Shown in pieces: positions 11,326 to 59,287 of a stretch of 64,000 nt of DNA. Position 1 is the first letter of the stretch. Every line of letters begins with the position of its first letter. This stretch comes from Sipunculus nudus (Eukaryota > Annelida > Sipuncula > Golfingiida > Sipunculidae). The stretch is taken from the NCBI GenBank assembly GCA_026874595.1, contig CM049307.1:36810862-36874861 (forward strand), in the 5' to 3' direction. The translations under genes and the position numbers were made by a program. The notes under the pieces are model-generated. The model was not told where the DNA came from. It saw only the letters and a list, made by a program, of their open reading frames with translations, and searched no databases.

Positions 11326-11500
11326 AGCTTAAAAGTGTTAAACTGAATTTACTGTTAGAAGCTGGTAATTACCATTCAGATATGTTTAATTCTGCTACCA
11401 GCAGTGATTTGTTAATCAGTTTATTTGTTTTGATGGGGGTAATTTAAATGTTTATGTGCATTCTTCTGGTTAAACAATGAAATTAGTGGACATACATTTT

Positions 11501-11880
11501 TAGCTCAGCTGCCTGTAAGTCATCTGAGGTATAGGAATGAGGCTTTGTCTGACATTCTGGTCATCCTTTAGCAGGGCACAAATCATTACTGTTGGTCCTA
11601 GAAACCTCTAAGTGAATATCCAGGGAGGTCAATAAATATTCTTTGAAACCTGAAATAGGGTCACTGCGACCTGTATACTTCGAGCTATGGGGCTTTTAAG
11701 TACCCCCTCCCCCCCCAAGAATAATAAGATATTCGATACAAACCCTCCAGTATCTTGATAATTAATGCATGGATTGTCATAAAAAACTTGCCTTGAATAT
11801 TGACCATGAAAATTTTTGTCAGTTCCCGACAAGTGGTGTTGCCACCTGTATTTTTTTCTTATTTTTACAAATATTTTTCT
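11501..11880. repeat. Single diverged unit of the ERE-bearing repeat family
   Basis: The head TAGCTCAGCTG..GTAAGTCATCTGAGGTATA resembles that at 9930. It then follows the same word order as the array at 22920-24835: GGTCCTAGAAACCTCTAA, GGGAGGTC, TTGAAACCTGAAAT and an inverted AGGTCA-like pair, here GGGTCACTGCGACCT at 11658-11672. It is a lone copy of that family. Confidence 0.6.
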
Positions 11881-11885
11881 AATTT

Positions 11886-12893
11886 TAGCCCTCAGCCCTT
11901 AGGCTGATGGGCTATTGTCGTCACCCAAGCTGTCCGTCCGTCCGTCCGTCCGGCGTCCATTAACTTTTACCTTGTGAGCGGGATATCTTGAAAAGGATTC
12001 ACCATCAGAATTTTATTTCCTTGGTAAAGATGTATATCGACAAAATCTCGGTCAAGTTCGAAGATGGGTGACCTTGACCTATTTTTCTACATTTTAGAGC
12101 TGATTATAGAAAAACACTTAGATGCTTATTACTCAGTAACCATTAGGTGGATTTTCACAAAACTTACTATGATTATTCGGACTGATAGTCTGTACCTAAT
12201 ACACAAGTTTGGTGGCGCCATCTACAATTTCTGATTTTTAATTAATTTTTATCTTATTTTTCAACTTTGTCCTTGTGAGAGGGATATCTCTAAAAGGATT
12301 CACAATAGGAATATTATTTTTTCGGTGAAGATGTATATTGACAAAATCTCGGTCAAGTTTGAAGATGGGTGACCTTGACCTATTTTTCTACGTTTTAGAG
12401 CTGATTATAGAAAAAACATTTAGAAGCTTATTTCTCAGGAACCATTTAGTGGATTTTCACAATACTTACTATGATCATAGGGACTGATGGTCTGTAACTG
12501 CTGCATGAGTTTGGGGGCGCCAACTACAGTTTCTGATTTTTAATGAATTTTTCTTGGATCTTTCAACTTTGTCCTTGTGAGCGGGATATCTATTAAATGA
12601 TTCACAATAGGAATTTTATTTCTTTGGTGAAGATGTATATCGACAAAATCTCGGTCAAGTTCGAAGATGGGTGACCTTGACCTACTTTTCAAGGTCACAG
12701 AGCTTATAATAGAATAAAACTTAGAAGCTTATATTTCAGGAAGCATTTGGTGGATTGTTATGAATCGTGGTACATACCTCTCCATTTTAAATTTATAACT
12801 GAGACATGTACAGATATACATCCATGTGAGAACAGATATTTAGTGCTTGTTACTGTTACCACCTCTAAACACTGTTCTTTTGGCTGAGGGCTT
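11886..12893. mobile_element. Hairpin-headed element with three 302-bp units
   Basis: The left head AGCCCTCAGCCCTTAGGCTG..GGGCT is self-complementary. The right end GGCTGAGGGCT (about 12882-12892) is the complement of the left AGCCCTCAGCC. After the head come four CCGT steps and three tandem units of about 302 bp, recognised by GATGGGTGACCTTGACCT at about 12063, 12364 and 12666. Each unit also carries ATCTCGGTCAAGTT and GTGAGCGGGATATC or a variant. TGACCTTGACCT is a DR0 pair of AGGTCA half-sites on the other strand. No protein is encoded. It resembles bivalve pearl-like repeats. Confidence 0.65.
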
Positions 12894-17021: not shown

Positions 17022-18950
17022 GTCAAGGCCCAGATTGCGATCTGGACGGATCTTAGATCTGTCCAGCCCAAACTGCGATCGCAGTTCAGGCCGGCCCAAA
17101 CTGCGATCGCAATCCAGGCTGGCCAGGTCTTAGATCTGTCCAGGCTATATTGCGATCGCAGTTAAGTCCGGCACAGATTGCGATCTTGTCTTTCTTGCTT
17201 CAGGATCGCAATCTGGACTGGACAGATCTAATATCTGTCCAGTCAAGATTGCAATCCTAAACTTGACCAGCCCATATTGCGATCCATGCGATCCAAGTGT
17301 TTCAGCTTGTTAATTTATAGTTATTTTAAAATTAAAAAAAAGTAAAATATGTCAAAATTTTTAAATTTTACTCAGACAAGTACTGATTAAATATGTCAAT
17401 ATGTTTCACTAATAATATTAAGACTCGTGGCTGTATCAGCTGTCACAAGACTATGTAAATATTCAAAATCTGTATTGCTGGTTCCTCAATTTATGTTAAT
17501 AAAATTAAACTTGCCCATCTCTAGTTTTCTCCTTGTACAATTTATAGGGTATTCTTATGCTTGAGTTATTTTTTATTCTTATAATGGTCTCATAGCTGAG
17601 ATTTCTTTTAAATTTTTTTTACATTTTTTTAAATAAAAATATTTAAATATGATAAAAAATCAGATCTTAGACAAGTTCTCGTTATGATTTCTGTAATGTT
17701 GATAATTGTCATAAGACTTTTGCTATGTCTAGTGCTTAGATTGATGTGAAAGTAGTCCAAAGTGAATATAATAGTTTTATGTTTAAATATAAATTAAAGC
17801 CATAAAACCAGGTACTTATGATCATTATGATCATACTTATGATCAATTTGTGAAATTTGTAAATTCTGGATTCTCAAGAACTTTGTTTTGCTGAAACTGA
17901 ATAAATACCAGACATGATAAGAATACTTTGCAAATATATTTGAATGCGAATATGAATATATGTACTCCATAATTTCATGCATAAAAATAGGAATACAGGT
18001 ATAAATGAAAGTATTTGAATACAAATGCAAATACTTTCAAAATTTAATCATGAATGTATTCATGAATATATTCTATAATATTATTTTAATAATCATTTAT
18101 TTCAATTATATTATTAAAAGATCTTTTCATTTGATGCTGTTATTATTTTTAATTTAAATTATATTTGACACAATATTTGTTATTAATTTATAATAAATAG
18201 TTATATTATTTAAGTTTTATTCTTGGGTAGGAATAACCAGTAATTATTAAATAAAAGTTCTCATTTGTAAAAATCAGAATTACCATGACTGATAATGGAC
18301 AGGTTTTTTTTCAAATAATTCTGCTGCAATGTAGATAAAGTTATATGGCCAAGTCCAAACCTATGTGAAAACAGCACACCATTCCAACTGTATATAATAT
18401 AAATGACATCAATCCTCTTCCCTGTCTCCAAGGATATTATCATAATCTTACATAACTTGAGTTAAACACCATCAGCTCAAAATGCAGCTTATATTAACAC
18501 ACAAAACCTGCACTTGCCTACCTCCTCTTTCAAATCATATTTTGTGAGCATATAAAATCCATTGGTTTCTTGTTACCTTTTTTCAACAACCATGCAATAC
18601 TAAATGAATTGGTGATACATCCCATGTTTCACTCCTGTGATATGAAGGAGTGAAAATTGCCTTTCTGTATTATAATTGTATTTATTATGGGAAAATGGTA
18701 CAATGCAATACCAAATGAGTTGGTAAAACAACCAATGTTTCACTCCTGTGATCGTAAAAGCATGGATCGCAATATGGGCTGGTCAAGTTTAGGATCGCAA
18801 TCTCGCCTGGACTGATCTTAGATCTGTCCAGACCAGATTGCAATCCTGAAGCAAGAAAGACAGGATCGCAGTCTGGGACGGACTAAACTGCGATCGCAAT
18901 TTGGGCTGGACAGATCTCAGATCCGTCCAGATCGCAATCTGGGCCTTGAC
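17022..18950 (+). mobile_element. GATC-ended inverted-repeat element, copy 2 (complete)
   Basis: The left terminal block runs about 17022-17290 from GTCAAGGCCCAGATTGCGAT. The right block runs about 18765-18950 and ends GGGCCTTGAC. The right block lacks one internal module of about 76 bp. Between them lies an AT-rich core of about 1.45 kb with no believable gene. The element is bounded on both sides by short AT runs (17011-17021 and 18951-18960), which suggests insertion into, or duplication within, a TA microsatellite. Its core is nearly identical to copy 1 in reverse and copy 3 in direct orientation. Confidence 0.85.
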
Positions 18951-18960
18951 ATATATATAT

Positions 18961-21565
<2,605 letters not shown>

Positions 21566-22919: not shown

Positions 22920-24835
22920 TAGTAGTTGTTTTTCGGAACTTCTAACTGTACATCCAAGGAGGTCCTGGGCAAATCTCCTTGGAAACCCTAAATTAGGGCA
23001 TGGTGACCTATATTTTGTGACCTACAGGCCGAAAACATGATTTTGAGAATCCAGACAGTCAGACGGGGCACAAATTGTATCCATTAGGCCTAGAAACCTC
23101 TAACCATTTTGGGAGATCCTAGGCAAATGTCCTTTTAAACCTGAAACGAGGTCACTGTGACCTATATTATCCAACCTATAGGGAAAAGATGTCTTATGAG
23201 CACCCTGAATGTCAGATGGGGACAAATCATATATGTGGGCCTGGAATCTTCTAACACAATATCCTGTGAGTTTCTAGGCAAATCTCCTTGGAAACCTGAA
23301 ATAAGGTCATGGTGACCTATATTTTAGAACCTACGGGCCAAAAAACAAGGTTTTTTTTAGCATCCAGACAGTCAGACGGGGCACAAATTGATCGATAAGG
23401 CCTAGAATCCTTGAAAGTGACATTTAGGGAGGTCCTAGGCAAATCTCCTTCGAAACATGAAATCAGGTCATGGTGACCTATATTTTGTTACCTAAAGGCC
23501 AAAAAGATGATTTCGAGTACTCTAAATGTCAGATGGGACCAAATGATGGGGACAAATCATATATGTGCGGCCTAGAATCGTCTAACTCAGTATCCTGGGA
23601 GTTTCTAGGAAAATGTCCTGGGAAACCTGAAATTAGGTCATAGTGACCTATATTTTTATGACCTATGGGCCCAAAACATGATTTTGAGCACCCAGACAGT
23701 CAGATGGGGACAGATAGTATCCATTTGGCCTAGAATCCTCCAACATGATATTAAGGGAGGTCCTTTGCAAATGTCCTTGGAAATCTGAAATTAGGTCACT
23801 GTGACCTATATTCTGCGACTATAGGAAAAAGATGCCGTATGAACACCCTGAATGTCAGGTGGTGACAAATCGTATCTGCTAGACCTTCTTCCTACACAAT
23901 ATCTTGAGAGGCTCTAGGCAAATCTCCCTGGAAACATGATATCAGGTCATGGTGACCTACGAGACAAAAACCTGATTTTGAGCCTCCTGAATGTCAGATG
24001 GGCACAAATATATCTGTTAGGCCTAAAATCTTCTAATGCAATATCCTGGGTGGTCCTGGGAAAATCTCCTTGGAAACCTGAATTTAGGTCATGGTGACGT
24101 GCATTTTGTGACCTACAGGCCGAAAACAGGATTTTGAGCAACCAGAAAGTCAGGCAGGGCACACATTGTATTTGTTAGGCCTAGGATCTTCTAATGTAAC
24201 ATTCTGAGATGTCTTTGGAAAATATCTGTGGAAAACTTGGTCACCTTGACCTATATCTATATCTATATTTCGAAAAGATGTCATATCAGCACCCAGACAG
24301 TCAGACAAGGCATAAATTGTATCCATTAGGCCCAGATGCTTTTAACATAAAATTCAGGGAGGTTCTAGTCAAGTGTCCTTGGAAACCTTAAAATAGGTCA
24401 TGATGACCTATATTATGTGGCATATGGGCTGAAAAATGGTTTTGCGCACCCAGACAGACAAGGCAAAAAATTGTATTCATTAGCCCTAGACTCTTCTAAC
24501 ATGACATTCAGGGAAATCCTTGGCAATACTCCTGGGAAACCTGAAATTGGATCATGTTGACCTGTATTCTGCTAGCTATGGACCAGAAACATGATTTGGA
24601 GCACCCAGACAGACAGGGTACAAATTGTATCCATTTTCCTTGAAACGCTGTACTGTGAAATCCAGGGGGGTCCTGGGCAGGTCTCCTATGAATCCTGAAA
24701 TTTTTATTATCTGACCATTTTTTCAACACTGTAACTTTAGCCTTAGGCTATTCTCACAGGCAATATATAACATTGATAAAAAAAAATATGAGCACCCAGT
24801 CAAAATTAGCTGAGCGTCATGGCCCATGGGCCACT
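22920..24835. repeat. Tandem array of ~155-bp units carrying palindromic estrogen response elements
   Basis: About eleven units follow one another. Each has the order GGCCTAGAA.CCTCTAAC, GGGAGGTCCTAGGCAAAT, TCCTTGGAAACCTGAAAT, AGGTCAnnnTGACCTATATT, GAGCACCCAGACAGTCAGA and GGGGCACAAATTGTAT or variants. Seven units have a perfect AGGTCAnnnTGACCT (starts 23149, 23304, 23465, 23635, 23793, 23944 and 24395). Three more differ at one base (22995, 24086, 24238) and one is more diverged (24549). Spacing is 142-170 bp. Units alternate in their tail sequence, hinting at a two-unit higher-order repeat. The array ends near a GGCCCATGGGCC palindrome (24820-24831). It encodes no protein. Confidence 0.9.
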
Positions 24836-25346
24836 TGATAAATCCATCTGTTACTGCTGCAGCTATTTGTTTCATTTTATGAGCATAGTGCTTTGTTTTC
24901 AGCTATTGTGATTTTTGTATTCACTTTGATGCTAGCCCATAGGAGGAGCTGCACTGTACCTTATGGGTATATCACATTTGTATTACATATTCAGACTTGT
25001 TTATAGAGATGAATCTTCATTTGAGATGAATATTCATGTCACATTTGAATTGATACTGTGTACTTTATTCCTAACCTTGGTTTCTGGTTTGATACATGCA
25101 TTTTATTATTAATTAGTAATATGCATATTCTGGTAATTTATATTGTTTTAACTAGCAGGATATACTGAAGGTTTTTGTGTATTTAAGAACACACATATCA
25201 TAGCATATCATTGTTTACATCTGCAATAGCTGGATTTTGCTACCCAATTCGGCGGGATGTCTTGGTAAGATCTGTAATTTTTTTATTGACTCTTAGTTTC
25301 TGTAGCAGACAAAAATACTGATTCTAAAACTAGTAAAGGCATTTTT
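24836..25346. other. Non-coding sequence, nothing recognised
   Basis: AT-rich sequence between two repeat arrays; no feature was found. Confidence 0.5.
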
Positions 25347-26353
25347 ATGCCCGGCCACAAAGTGGCCGGGGCATATAGTTTTACCCATGTCCGTCCTTCC
25401 ATCCTTCCGAAATCAAACAGTTGTACGGACTTTTTTTCGCAATGTCTGCAGATATTGGCCTGATTTTTGGTGTGTGGGCAGATATAGACCAGTTATAGAT
25501 CGAGTTCGCGTTTCGTCCCTGTTGACCTACTTTTGACCATTTTACGGCTCCTAAACTTAGAAAATTTCATGAAAAATAGAAATATTCATGACAGATACAC
25601 ATGTACAGATTTTTTTTGCAATGCCTGCAGATTTTGGCCTACTTTTTGGTGTGTGGGCAGATATAGACCAGTTACAGATATAGTTCGCGTTTCGTCCCGG
25701 TTGACCTACTTTTGACCGTTTTACGGCTACTGAACATAGAAAATTTCATGAAAAATATGAAATTTCATGACCAATACACATGTACGGACTTTTTTTCGCA
25801 TTGCCTGCAGATATTGGCCTGATTTTTGGTGTGTCTGTAGATATTGACCAGTTACAGATGGAGTTCACGTTTCGTCCTTGTTGACCTACTTTTGACTGTT
25901 TTACGGCTCCTGAACATAGAAAATTTCATGTAAAATATATATTTTCATGACAAATACACTTGTACAGACTTTTCTTCACAATACCTGCAGATATTGGCCT
26001 GATTTTTGGTGTGTGGGCAGATAATGACCAGTTACAGATCAAGTTTGCGTTTCATCCCGGTTGACCTACTTTTGATTGTTTTACAGCTCCTAAACATAGA
26101 AAATTTCATGAAAGACAGAAATTTTTATGGAAAATGCACATGTATGGACTTTTTTTCACAATGCCTGCATATACTGGCATGATTTTTGGTGTGTTGCTTG
26201 ATAATGACCCGTTACAGATTGAGTTTGCATTTTGCTCTTGTTGACCTTCTTTTGACCATACGACACCTCCTGAACTTAAAAATTTTTCCAAATTTTACAA
26301 ATGTTTCTAATTTGCCCAAGGCGGGGGAATTCGTGTCGTTCCGACAAATCTAG
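25347..26353. mobile_element. Hairpin-headed element with five 180-bp units
   Basis: The head ATGCCCGGCCAC-AAA-GTGGCCGGGGCAT (25347-25374) is a strong hairpin, followed by CCGTCCTTCC. Five units follow with starts at 25423, 25603, 25782, 25962 and 26142, a period of 179-180 bp. They are marked by GTACGGACTTTTTTTCGCA, CCTGCAGATATTGGCCTGAT and GTTGACCTACTTTTGACC. The right end is GGCGGGGGAATTCGTGTCGT..CTAG. The layout matches other bivalve-type repeats with tandem cores. TTGACCTACTTTTGACC is a spaced pair of half-sites. Confidence 0.7.
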
Positions 26354-30896: not shown

Positions 30897-31490
30897 TTGA
30901 CCAGGACCTTATATCCTGCACATATGGCTCACCCACCCATGGATGAAGAACCCTATTGGCTTTGAGGTCATATGGCTCACCCACCCATGGATGAAGAACC
31001 CTATTGGCTTTGAGGTCATGGGGGTCAAAGGTCGCAACCACAGGACCTACTTGAAAAACTTGTGGACCCATTTTAAGCCAAACTGCATGTTTGTCCAAAA
31101 TATTTCATCTTGCACATATGGCTCACCCACCCACAGATGACAAAACCTTTTGAGTTTGAGGCCACATAGTCAAAGGTCACAGCCACAGGACCCATTTCTT
31201 GAAAAACCTTTTCGACCCATTTAAAGCCAAAGCATTTGACCAAAATCTTTCGTCTTTCATATATGGCTCACTCATCCACAGATGACAAACCCTCTTTGAG
31301 TTTGAGGTCACAGGGTCAAAGGTCACGGCCACAGGACCCACTTCTTGAAAAACCTTATCGACCCATTTTAAGCCAAAGAATTGACCAAAATCTTTTGTCT
31401 TTCATATATGGCTCACCCACCCATGGTATCATTCTGGACCCTATTGAGTTTGAGGTCACAGGGTCAAGTTAACAGAGCAGCCTTCATTTT
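30897..31490. repeat. Tandem repeat, 146-bp period with a 55-bp sub-duplication
   Basis: The phrase CATATGGCTCACCCACCCA recurs near 30920, 30970, 31115, 31259 and 31404. The first two copies are a recent 50-55-bp duplication (GGATGAAGAACCCTATTGGC). Each later unit adds TTGAGGTCAC.GGGTCAAAGGTC and CAGGACCCA.TTCTTGAAAAA. Single or paired AGGTCA half-sites are present in every unit. Confidence 0.8.
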
Positions 31491-33635: not shown

Positions 33636-35360
33636 CTAGAATACGGGTAGTCGACAAGCGACTACGTGTATCCGCCAAAATCAGAGAAGGACGGGTGAAG
33701 TAAGGCATTGATTGAGTGGCAAGGGGATATAGAGTTACATGTGTTAAATATTAGAATGGATCTCTGCCACATAAACATGATTGTAGGTGGCGCCACCTGT
33801 TATTTGAACGAGAAACTATCCAAGATATATACACATGCAAAATTTCATGTGGAAAAGTCAAACCACTGCAGAGATATGAGTAATTTTATCCTACAGCAGA
33901 CAAACAGATGGACGCTGTGCAAAAATGGCTGCAGGTTGCGCCACCATTTTTGTTCATGTTATAAAGCTATCCAAGGACTACTTTGTGTAAAATTTTTTTC
34001 CTGATTGGTCAAACGGTTCCCGAGATATGAGCTTGGATGTCTGCAGCATAAACGTGAATGTAGGTGGCGCCACCTGTCATAAAATCAAGAAAGCTATCTA
34101 GGATGTATACACATGCCGAATTTTAGGTGAATTAGTCAAACCACTGCAGAGATATGAGTGATTTTAACCCCAGGCAGATTAACAAATGGACACTGTGCAA
34201 ACATGGTTGCAGGTGGCGCCACCTTTTGTTGTGTATGTTATAAAGCTATCCCAGGGCTACATTTGTGTAAAAAAATTTTCCGGATCGGTCAAACGGTTCC
34301 TGAGATATATGGATTTATGTGTGGAGTGTTAACGTGAATGTAGGTGGTGCCACCTGTCATTAAATCAAGAAAGCTATCTAGAATGTATATGCATGCTGAT
34401 TTTTAGGTGAATTAGTCAAACCACTGCAGAGATATGAGTGATTTTAACCCCAGGCAGATGAACAAATGGACACTGTGCAAACATGGTTGCAGGCGGCGCC
34501 ACCTTTTGTTGTGTATGTAATAAAGCTATCCCAGGGCTACATTTGTGTAAATTTTTTTTCCAGATCGGTCAAACGGTTCCCAAGATATATGGGATTATGT
34601 GTGAAGCGTTAACGTGAATGTAGGTGGCGCCACCTGTCACAAAATCGAGAAAGCTATCTAGGATGTATATACATGCCGAATTTTAGGTGAATTAGTCAAA
34701 CCACTGCAGAGATATGAGTGATTTTAACCCCAGGCAGATGAACAGATGGACACTGTGCAAACATGGTTGCAGGTGGCGCCACCTTTTGTTGTGTATGTTA
34801 TAAAGCTATCCCAGGGCTACATTTGTGTAAAATTTTTTTCCTGATCGGTCAAATGGTTCCCGAGATATATGGGATTATGTGTGGAGCGTTAACGTGAATG
34901 TAGGTGGCGCCACCTGTCACAAAATCGAGAAAGCTATCTAGGATGTATATGCATGCCGCATTTTAGGTGAATTAGTCAAATCACTGCAGAGATATGAGTG
35001 ATTTTAACCCCAGGCAGATGAACAGATGGACACTGTGCAAACATGGTTGCAGGTGGCGCCACCTTTTGTTGTGTATGTTATAAAGCTTTCCCAGGGCTAC
35101 ATTTGTGTAAATTTTTTTTCCGGATCGGTCAAACGGTTCCCGAGATATATGGGTTTATGTGTGGAAACAGACGCACAAACGGACGCTGGGCAGAGACGAA
35201 AGGTCAGAGGTCAAGGTCACTTGGTTAGGCACCAGTTCACATGTGACCCGATAATTTGTGTAAGTTTCGGAAAAATCTGCCCAGTAGTCTCAGAGGAGTT
35301 CTCCGGAAACGAACACGGTGGCGGCGGCGGCGGAACCCGGTCAAAAACATAGTATCCGCA

Positions 35361-35409: not shown

Positions 35410-36490
35410 CCACCGCCGCCGCCGCCGCATTCGTTTTCGGAGAACTCCTCTGAGACTACTGGACGGATTTTTCCAAAACTTACACAAATTACCGGGTCAC
35501 ATGTGAACTGGTGCCTAACCAAGTGACCTTGACCTCTGACCTTTCCTCTCTGCCCAGCGTCTGTTTGTACGTCTGTTTTCTCACATTAACCCATATATCT
35601 CAGGAACCGTTTGACCGATCAGGAAAAAAATTTTAAACAAAAAAGTAGCCCTTGGATAGCTTTATAACATACACAACAACAGGTGGCGCCACCTGCAACC
35701 ATGTTTGCACAGTGTCCATCTGTTCATCTGCCTTGGGTTAAAATCACTCATATCTCTGCAGTGGTTTGACTAATTCACCTAAAATTCGGCATGCGTATAC
35801 ATCCTAGGTAGCTTTCTTGATTTTATGACAGGTAGCGCCACCTACATTCACGTTCACGCTGTAGACATCCATGCTTATATCTCCGGACTCGTTCAACCAA
35901 TCAGGAAAAAAATTTTACACAAATGTAGCCCTGGGATAGCTTTATAACATACACAACAAAAGGTGGCGCCACCTGCAACCATGTTTGCACAGTGTCCATC
36001 TGTTCATCTGCCATGGGTTAAAATCACTCATATCTCTGCAGTGGTTTGACTAATTCACCTAAAATTCGGCATGCGTATACATCCTGTATAGCTTATTTGA
36101 TTATATGACAGGTGGCGCCACCTACATTCACGTTCTCGCTGTAGACATCCATGCTTATATCTCCGGACTCGTTAAACCAATCAGGAAAAAAAATTTACAC
36201 AAATGTAGCCCTTGGATAGCTTTATAACATACACAAAAATGGTGGCGCCTCCTGCAACCATGTTTGCACAGTGTCTATCTGTTCATCTGCCATGGGTTAA
36301 AATCACTCTTATCTCTGCAGTGGTTTGACCAAATTACCTGAAATTTGGCATGCATATACATCCTAGATAGCTTTCTTGATTTAATGACAGGTGGCGCCAC
36401 CTACATTCACGTTCATGCTGCAGACATTAATGCTTATATCTCCGGAACCATTTGACCAATCTGGAAAAAAAAAATACACAAATGTAACAC

Positions 36491-56439: not shown

Positions 56440-57290
56440 ATAGAAGGGGGTGTCCTATGGTAATCACCCTGTTCATCTGTCTGTCTGTCAGCAAATTCAT
56501 TTCCGGATGATAACTCAAGTTTCGATTCACATATGGATTTAAATTAAACTTAATGTATAAATGGCCTACCACTAAAGCAAGAACCCTATTGATTTGGGGG
56601 TCGTGAGGTCAAAGGTCAAGGTGTCAGGACTCGCATTTATAAAACTTTCTTGATGCATTTTCAGCCAATCTTTCCATGCCAGTCTTCAATCTTACACATA
56701 TATGACACATGCCAACAGGGAAACATCTCTATCAATCTTGGGGTCACAAGTTCAAAGTTCAAGGTCATAGGAGCCATCTGTCCACAAATATATTTCCAGA
56801 TGATAACTCTACTTGGGATTCACATATGGATATCAACCTTAATATATAAATGGCCCACCACTAAAGCAAGAACCCTTTTGATTTGGTGTTATGAGGTCAA
56901 AGGTCACATTCCCCACATGTTTAAAAAGATTGTGGATGCATTTTAAGCAAAACCTTTCATACCAGAGGTTCTATCTTACACATACAGCTCACATGCCAAT
57001 AGGCAAATATCCCTTTCCTTATTGGGGTCACAAGGTCAAAGGTCAAGGTCACAGGAGTCATCTGTATATGAACTGATTTCCAAAACCTTTCATAACTCTA
57101 GTTTGGATTCACATAAAGATTTCAAACCTAACATATATATCATATGGCCCACTTAAAAAGCAAGAACCCTATTGATTTTTGGGGTCAAGAGGTCAGAAGT
57201 CAAGGTCTAAGGACTCATATTTCTAAAAATGTGTGAATGCCTTTTAAGCCAAACTTTTCATGCCAGTCTTTCCATCTTGCTTCAGTGTTT
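56440..57290. repeat. CTGT-headed AGGTCA repeat, copy 2 (several units)
   Basis: It opens with GGGGTGTCCTATGGTAATCA and (CTGT)n, like the copy near 13009. About four to five diverged units follow, each with GGATGATAACTC, TTTCAAACCTAA or similar, a GCAAGAACCCTATTGATTT phrase and an AGGTCA cluster. Perfect AGGTCAAAGGTCA is seen at 56606 and 56894, and AGGTCAAAGGTCAAGGTCA at 57033-57051. Confidence 0.75.
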
Positions 57291-57966: not shown

Positions 57967-59287
57967 GTATCCCCAGACAAAGTCGGGATACTATGGTTTC
58001 ACGACGGTCCCGCAGCCGCCGCAGAAAAACCTTGTGAGCGGGATAACTCAAAAAATATTTCATTGATCTTTTTCAAACTTTACATTTGTATAGATATAGG
58101 TAAGGGGATGAAGCCTTTTTAAAATGGGGTCATGACCTATGCTAGGAGAGTGACATTGACCTTGAATAGGTCCATTTTTGCTGAAAATAACACAAATTCT
58201 TGAATATCTCATGTAAGCTTGCATGGACTGGTCCAAAAATCAAGGTGACTGAAGATCTTGGATAGCCTTGTGATATACCGGAAACTGGTGGCGCCACCTA
58301 TTATCCTTTTCTTGTTTTTACGCCTTTTAATACCCCCATAATTGCCTCTTGACAGTACTGTAAGCATTATAAGTCAAAAAGTAATGGACAGATTTCTTTC
58401 ATATTATACACATGTAGAGAGATGGGTTAGGGGATGAGGACTATTTACATTTGGGTCATGACCTTTACAATGAGTGGCCTTGACCTTTAATGTGTCCATA
58501 TTTGGTGAAAATCACACACCTCTTATGATATCTCCAGTGTTGATAGCCATATGGATTTCAAACGTGACTTATGTATGGCCCACCACTAAAGTAAGAACCC
58601 TATAGGTTCTAGGGTCATGAGGTCAAAGGTCAAGGTCACTGGACTCGTGTATCTTAAAAGATACTGTGGATGCATTTTAAGCCAAACTTTCATCCCAGGT
58701 CTTTCATCTTGAATATATAGCTCACTTGCCAATAGTGGATGATCCATATCAATTTTGGGGTCACAAGGTCAAAGGTCAAGGCCACAGGAGCTATCTGTCA
58801 AATAAAATTAGTTTCTGGATGATACTTCCTGCCTTTATTGATGTATTGATTTCAAACTTGACTTATATATGTCCCATTGAAAAAGCAAGACTCCAATTGA
58901 TTTTGGGGTCATGAGGTCAAAGGTCAAGGTCACAGGACACATCTTTAAAAAAGATTGTGGACGCATTTTCAGCCAAACATTTCATCTCAGACCTTTCATC
59001 TTGCACATATAGTTCATCTGCCAATAGAGGAAGACCCCTATCTTTTTTGAGGTCAAAAGGTCAAAGGTGAAGGTCACAGGAGCCATCTGTTCAAAAATTA
59101 GTTTCTGGTTGATAATTCCTGCTTTTATTGATGTATGGATTTCAAATTTGACTTGTATATGACCCATTGGAAAAGCAAGACCCGAATTGATTTTGGGGTC
59201 ATGAGGTCAAAGGTCAAGGTCACAGGACACATCTTTAAAAATGGGGGCTTATTCTTAAAGGGGGGGCCGTACTATGTCTGGGGATAC
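57967..59287. mobile_element. Inverted-repeat element with GTATCCCCAGACA ends and internal AGGTCA units
   Basis: The left end GTATCCCCAGACAAAGT (57967-57983) is the complement of the right end (59271-59287) with one difference. The left head continues CGGGATACTATGG, making a small hairpin. The first part (58030-58520) carries GTGAGCGGGATAACTCAAAAA and GGTGGCGCCACC, words shared with the elements at 11886 and 33636. The second part (58535-59240) is a CTGT-family AGGTCA array that appears to be nested or fused. There is no protein. Edges are uncertain beyond the inverted ends. Confidence 0.65.
58535..59240. repeat. AGGTCA repeat, copy 3, within the 57967-59287 element
   Basis: AGGTCAAAGGTCAAGGTCA occurs at 58620-58638, 58914-58932 and 59204-59222. 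Close variants are at 58766 and 59058. The unit of about 290-295 bp consists of two alternating halves, one with GCAAGA(C/A)CC..ATTGATTTTGGGG and one with AGGAGC(C/T)ATCTGT. Confidence 0.8.

Follow-up and report, generated by a model that had tools for sequence, protein, structure and literature searches.

Structure of the array

The stretch of DNA analysed here (the window, 64,000 nucleotides from Sipunculus nudus) contains, from position 22920 to about 24640, eleven tandem units of 142–170 bp each. Every unit carries one site matching the IR3 motif AGGTCAnnnTGACCT, with up to two mismatches. On the forward strand, a motif scan located perfect sites in seven units (unit 2, 23149–23163; unit 3, 23304–23318; unit 4, 23465–23479; unit 5, 23635–23649; unit 6, 23793–23807; unit 7, 23944–23958; unit 10, 24395–24409), sites with one mismatch in three (unit 1, 22995–23009; unit 8, 24086–24100; unit 9, 24238–24252) and a site with two mismatches in unit 11 (24549–24563), whose GGATCA half is common to a subtype seen in 12 arrays. 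Tandem Repeats Finder independently called a 155-bp period at 22958–24188 and a 154-bp period at 24298–24702, and a partial twelfth unit ends at 24702, where the 3' flank of an element starts (see below). The whole array thus spans 22920–24702 on the forward strand, and homologous units occur in 20 arrays fetched from the genome. A preliminary description of this locus had reported the array, its 142–170 bp spacing, the seven perfect start positions and the likeness of the motif to the estrogen response element; the direct scan and Tandem Repeats Finder agree on the array, the scan returned the same spacing and exactly the same seven starts, and AGGTCAnnnTGACCT does match the estrogen response element.

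Scanning the entire window, we obtained 20 matches to the motif with at most two mismatches, nine of them outside the array, as compared to a mean of 2.46 and a maximum of 8 in 100 shuffled windows. The half-site AGGTCA itself appears 114 times in the window, with 31.9 occurrences expected, and the hexamers ranking above it belong to A/T simple repeats or, by eye, to single repeat families. A chance origin of the motif is ruled out by the shuffles together with the reversed-pattern control described below. An RNA gene was likewise discarded, with no tRNA and no Rfam match, and four of the nine open reading frames of at least 120 amino acids were scanned, yielding one weak, sub-threshold Pfam match. 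Among the eleven window units, divergence from the consensus is 3.8% for half-site columns, 27–36% for the spacer and 18.6% elsewhere; the core-masked alignment of the 188 units described below counts six of the eleven as perfect, versus seven by direct scan.

Dispersal of the units in the genome

Among the possibilities raised in the preliminary description was a repeat that spread such sites, to be checked by searching the host genome for the unit and counting IR3 sites. The count gave 13,608 perfect copies of AGGTCAnnnTGACCT in the assembly (1.43 Gb, 153 contigs) versus 93 for the reversed pattern, and the search found the units dispersed, which bears out that suggestion; spacings of 4 to 10 bases (IR4–IR10) together yielded 1,409 occurrences versus 669 for the control. 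With one window unit as query, we retrieved 3,733 first-look candidates, 40 of which were scored and produced 54 matches, including the query itself, with 75–100% identity and distributed over 14 contigs, ruling out a single local array. We then ran a profile with masked core on the 20 fetched arrays and the window, obtaining 218 unit matches in 21 arrays, of which 30 covering less than 85% of the unit were dropped and 188 were kept.

In a 200-kb sample, drawn as 20 stretches from fixed positions along ten contigs, the core-masked profile identified 23 units, as compared to zero when the sequence was reversed. Such units contain the five perfect IR3 sites of this sample, all in array L016, and also the perfect sites of L001–L004, loci that were picked by the motif. 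The core is perfect in 1,363 of 4,502 flank-intact copies (30%), versus 50% among the 188 units. The unit and the 5' end of the element gave no matches against viral contigs, and a search of genome contigs returned a single match, of 18 bases, to a cyanobacterial MAG. In all, the S. nudus genome seems to have received thousands of hormone-receptor-like candidate sites from a mobile DNA element.

Element ends and a sister family

The flanks of 20 arrays, including that of the window and leaving out L044 and secondary arrays, could be aligned once oriented by their units. At the 5' end they contain, in order, a T-run (at most of the junctions seen), AGCTCAGCTGACTGTAAGTCATCTGAGCTATAGCGATCACCCTTTGTCCGG, a GTCC microsatellite and the array, and at the 3' end, the subterminal repeat AGCTGAGC followed by the palindrome TGGCCCATGGGCCA. 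By eye, the 5' flank is whole or nearly whole in 16 arrays, partial in two and absent from two (the window and L032), with TTTTTAGCTCAGCTGACTGTAAGTCATCTGAGCTAT followed by GTCC repeats in 16 of the 20 and absent from the window copy; the 3' end is present in 12, limited to its first part in two and absent from six. The window copy retains the 3' flank (24703–24837, forward strand), with 94.8% identity to a consensus typed from the flank alignment, and in it, by eye, AGCTGAGC at 24808–24815 and TGGCCCATGGGCCA at 24820–24833, both on the forward strand; we found no 5' end adjoining its array. Other copies have, by eye, the reverse complement of AGCTGAGC, GCTCAGCT, at their 5' end.

The HINE element of Crassostrea gigas (Cg_HINE) is described, in the passages of its report that deal with structure, as consisting of a 5' subterminal repeat, an inverted repeat, a microsatellite, central tandem repeats, a 3' subterminal repeat and a palindrome (PMC7492417). 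The copies aligned here likewise have a 5' subterminal repeat with a nearby inverted repeat and then a microsatellite, central repeats in a single orientation with respect to the ends, and a 3' subterminal repeat plus palindrome (24808–24833 in the window). Judging from these ends, the window array forms the tandem-repeat centre of a 5'-truncated copy of a dispersed element with the layout of Helentrons and HINEs ("Pearl"); we saw nothing setting the window copy apart from the many others.

In a sister family, whose unit measures about 336 bp, a 12-bp box that neighbours the core, AAACCTGAAATT, is kept and AGGTCTCTGTTACCC stands in place of the IR3 pair, as in the arrays at L014 1877–3318 and L005 8582–10000. 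This family has spread too: its units turned up in L005, L008, L012 and L014, four of the 20 stretches of the sample, versus one (L016) for the IR3 family, and L008 additionally includes a single unit whose IR3 has one mismatch. In L014 we observed both ends of the element, which are common to the IR3 family.

Conservation of the site

Across the 188 units from 21 arrays, divergence is 7.3% for half-site columns, 22–37% for the spacer and 17.3% for other columns (median 11.9%), so that the core is better kept than most of the unit, as anticipated in the preliminary description. The core is intact in 94 of these units, and any of 101 other 6-3-6 combs in at most 37% of them. We built a parsimony tree from which the core columns were left out. 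Total steps on it, per column and sequence, came to 0.061 for half-sites and 0.068 for the rest; of 20,000 base-matched column sets, 1,821 were as low, and the half-site value is not significantly low. A split into internal and terminal branches, made after this test, gave 10.42 terminal changes per column for half-sites versus 9.56 for the rest. On internal branches, half-site columns changed 0.92 times, as compared to 4.00 in the spacer and 3.40 elsewhere, and not one of 20,000 base-matched sets reached so low a value. Columns left out of a tree could look different for that reason alone, and we therefore rebuilt the trees leaving out other blocks: 35 blocks clear of the core showed a mean of 3.49 and a minimum of 1.75, as compared to 0.92 for the core, and the block AAACCTGAAATTAGG, three columns of which overlap the core, tied with it at 0.92. 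The 12-bp box AAACCTGAAATT is as constrained as the core. When arrays were split in two sets, values for half-sites and the rest were 0.25 versus 1.93 and 1.08 versus 2.20.

According to the preliminary description, its reading would be refuted if the core mutated no more slowly than the rest of the unit; this is what happens on terminal branches (10.4 versus 9.6), but not on internal ones. Purifying selection after insertion is ruled out by the decay of half-sites at an ordinary rate on terminal branches. The pattern is as expected if the site mattered to those copies that went on spreading and not to the others. In the same line, 13 of 14 subtype consensuses (subtypes being clusters of at least five units at one cut-off) contain a perfect IR3, with differing spacers. 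The lone exception reads GGATCATGGTGACCT and is apparently the unit adjoining the 3' end, as deduced from unit 11 of the window and from L016, which has a similar unit at its end.

Extended half-sites

Sites of the ROR and Rev-erb receptors (NR1F/NR1D) have an A/T-rich consensus, WAWNT, 5' of AGGTCA. The 94 units with a perfect core show WAWNT as the majority bases at both half-sites, as in ROR/Rev-erb sites. The positions of this extended palindrome, which were picked after seeing those majority bases, underwent 0.80 changes versus 3.67 for columns off the block (Mann-Whitney, 3e-6), with terminal changes alike; column 73, supposedly a free position of the extended palindrome, changed once only. 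Of the 233 AGGTCA hexamers in the 200-kb sample, 67 have WAWNT directly before them, versus 1–10% for five control hexamers, and 34 of these 67 come from one 180-bp array. Without the four stretches containing 155- or 180-bp arrays, it precedes 7 of 147, like the controls; WAWNT thus belongs to the 155- and 180-bp families and not to AGGTCA generally.

Other repeat families

We found 29 long-period arrays in 264 kb; the consensus of several of them, differing in sequence, includes AGGTCA arrangements. For the initial choice of motifs, conservation ranks were 2/149 for the 180-bp family and 5/280 for the 302-bp family, and the motif first chosen for the 146-bp family was absent from its consensus. 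After altering the motif limits, a second ranking gave 0/149 (180 bp), 10/277 (302 bp), 3/121 (146 bp), 2/268 (290 bp), 10/114 (137 bp) and 6/255 for the palindrome GGTGGCGCCACC of the 280-bp family; these ranks are for families selected for holding a motif, disregard the kinship of units and come in several cases from 7 to 11 units or one array, the 146- and 290-bp families being related and from the window only, and 35 of the 57 units of the 180-bp family being from one array.

The best-conserved 18-mer of the 180-bp repeat (window 25422–26257, L005, L009 and L021) is GTTGACCTACTTTTGACC, a direct pair of receptor-like half-sites spaced by five bases. The 302-bp repeat (window 11962–12756) contains AGGTCAAGGTCA, a direct pair without spacer, and a HINE-type 5' end is found upstream of it, at 11497–11534. 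Direct pairs spaced by one base, AGGTCAAAGGTCA, GGGTCAAAGGTCA or AGGTCAGAGGTCA, occur at 30970–31467, 56499–57203 and 58550–59242 in the window and at L014 9375–9682. Repeats of about 280 bp (window 33774–35165 and 35594–36486, also L005, L007, L019 and L021) carry the palindrome AGGTGGCGCCACCT, which is among the better-conserved blocks of the unit and part of which resembles half a CTCF core motif. The palindrome GCGATCGC, or one near it, occurs in 28-, 77- and 99-bp repeats at window 17066–17124, 18981–19224 and 20800–20943. A minisatellite elsewhere in the genome (G000, C1:3360225–3362484) contains inverted AGGTCA pairs with a 7-base spacing at multiples of 27 bp.

Candidate receptors

The genome yielded 67 matches to nuclear-receptor DNA-binding domains, with a recognisable finger in 17 of the 20 exon regions examined out of 40 selected. 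We take the P-boxes CEGCKAFF and CEACKAFF to be of the estrogen receptor (ER) and ERR types, respectively. CEGCKAFF within one exon occurs nowhere in the assembly, and no match to the human ER DNA-binding domain exceeds 56% identity over its length, short exons aside. The best of the short-exon matches (74% over 34 residues, at C3:3612701) contains the only CEACKAFF in the assembly, and the gene there therefore looks ERR-type. The assembly has a single KC[YF]EVGM motif, and the finger lying about 0.8 kb away from it reads ESCKAFF. Most first fingers examined stop at CEGCK ahead of an intron; a split ER would therefore escape the P-box search, but not the protein search. The best PDB match of a second-finger exon at C4:12193250 was ROR-gamma (E 1.7e-17), followed by the retinoic acid receptor (5.1e-16), indicating, on one exon, a ROR-like receptor in the host.

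The reader of the site proposed in the preliminary description, an estrogen receptor, was not supported: the assembly contained neither an ER P-box nor an ER-like domain, a split P-box or a gap aside, and an ERR-type P-box was found instead. The receptor here is probably not an estrogen receptor, and an ERR or a ROR/Rev-erb-type receptor would be better candidates. According to the part of one study that bears on this, a mollusc ER bound the estrogen response element and its ERR apparently did not, the data not being shown there (PMC3778743).

Why the site is kept

We propose, giving it about an even chance, that this is a non-autonomous Helentron-like family whose IR3 pair was selected during its spread, most likely through a host nuclear receptor. 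The array would be the central repeat of one 5'-truncated copy of a HINE/Pearl-type family with thousands of units, each of about 155 bp and with one inverted AGGTCA pair, three bases apart and with A/T-rich 5' extensions (WAWNTAGGTCA). Selection would have held the pair within the lineage that continued spreading: a host nuclear receptor binding it may help the element where its activity is needed, for example by opening germ-cell chromatin, and inserted copies would then decay neutrally. Beside the observed motif, dispersal, element ends and pattern of constraint, the cause of that constraint would most likely be a protein, a nuclear receptor in particular; most copies are probably now inert for the host. 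This explanation is favoured by the few internal changes in the half-sites and in the extended palindrome and by the good conservation of AGGTCA in other families, and is weakened because the total steps of half-site columns are not significantly low, because AAACCTGAAATT ties with the core, because the sister family spread without the site and because only 1,363 of 4,502 copies are perfect.

In another explanation, a real possibility though with the balance against it, a block of about 35 bp that includes the IR3 is constrained for other causes, such as replication of the element, nucleosome positioning or some other protein, and the IR3 would resemble a receptor site only by coincidence. The box is as constrained as the pair and is what the sister family retained, and the length of the unit is close to nucleosome size; however, the 3-bp spacer is free inside the block while both 6-bp halves are held, and families of other sequence keep non-palindromic AGGTCA layouts, which a role as DNA palindrome would not predict. 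It is improbable that the IR3 of an ancestral monomer was simply copied without selection, a founder effect that would agree with the ordinary rate of terminal decay and with total steps that are not significantly low, but not with subtypes that diverged outside the block and kept, in 13 of 14 consensuses, a perfect IR3 while the spacer changed. Very improbable is a cluster of enhancers, or a sink, for an estrogen receptor, in spite of the textbook IR3 sequence and of a mollusc ER domain reported, in the portion of the study concerned, to bind GGTCAnnnTGACC without ligand (PMC3778743), since one-exon CEGCKAFF and ER-like matches to the human domain are missing from the assembly and its sole KC[YF]EVGM lies by an ESCKAFF finger.

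Returning to selection through a host nuclear receptor, it is conceivable, if rather doubtful, that such dependence is a trait common to the tandem-repeat transposons of this genome, each family retaining AGGTCA arrangements (the IR3 of the 155-bp family, and direct pairs with spacings of 0, 5 and 1 in the 302-bp, 180-bp and 137–146/290-bp families, respectively). If so, these elements would track host receptors and would have seeded the genome with receptor sites by the thousand, in a species where no estrogen receptor was detected.

Comparison with known elements

We know of no explanation for why Helentrons carry central tandem repeats; a receptor-like site held while spreading, and not afterwards, would be a direct and testable reason. 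Our searches of the openly accessible literature turned up no account of Helentron repeats carrying nuclear-receptor sites. In mammals, transposons carrying estrogen response elements disperse receptor sites; unlike them, the element described here has one site in each tandem unit and comprises several such units, and no ER was found in its host genome.

The DINE-1/Helentron elements of Drosophila are, like the element proposed here, non-autonomous and with central repeats, as far as they are treated in PMC4067079, which also recounts that in D. miranda the male-specific lethal complex binds sites supplied by DINE-1-like elements. That case concerns a site useful to the host and another protein, whereas the site here is nuclear-receptor-like and any use to the host would be conjectural. 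From the structural account in PMC7492417, Cg_HINE and bivalve Pearl elements share with this element the general layout and central repeats of 140–180 bp, and, like the elements of this genome, include families whose ends are related and whose central repeats are not. HINEs are characterised by insertion into T-rich sequence without target-site duplication and by mobilisation through an autonomous Helentron with matching ends; among the copies here, a T-run stands at most of the 5' junctions seen. The term "transcription factor" is absent from the main text of that paper. The likeness is one of described layout, and the conserved IR3 pair is a feature of the central repeats in S. nudus.
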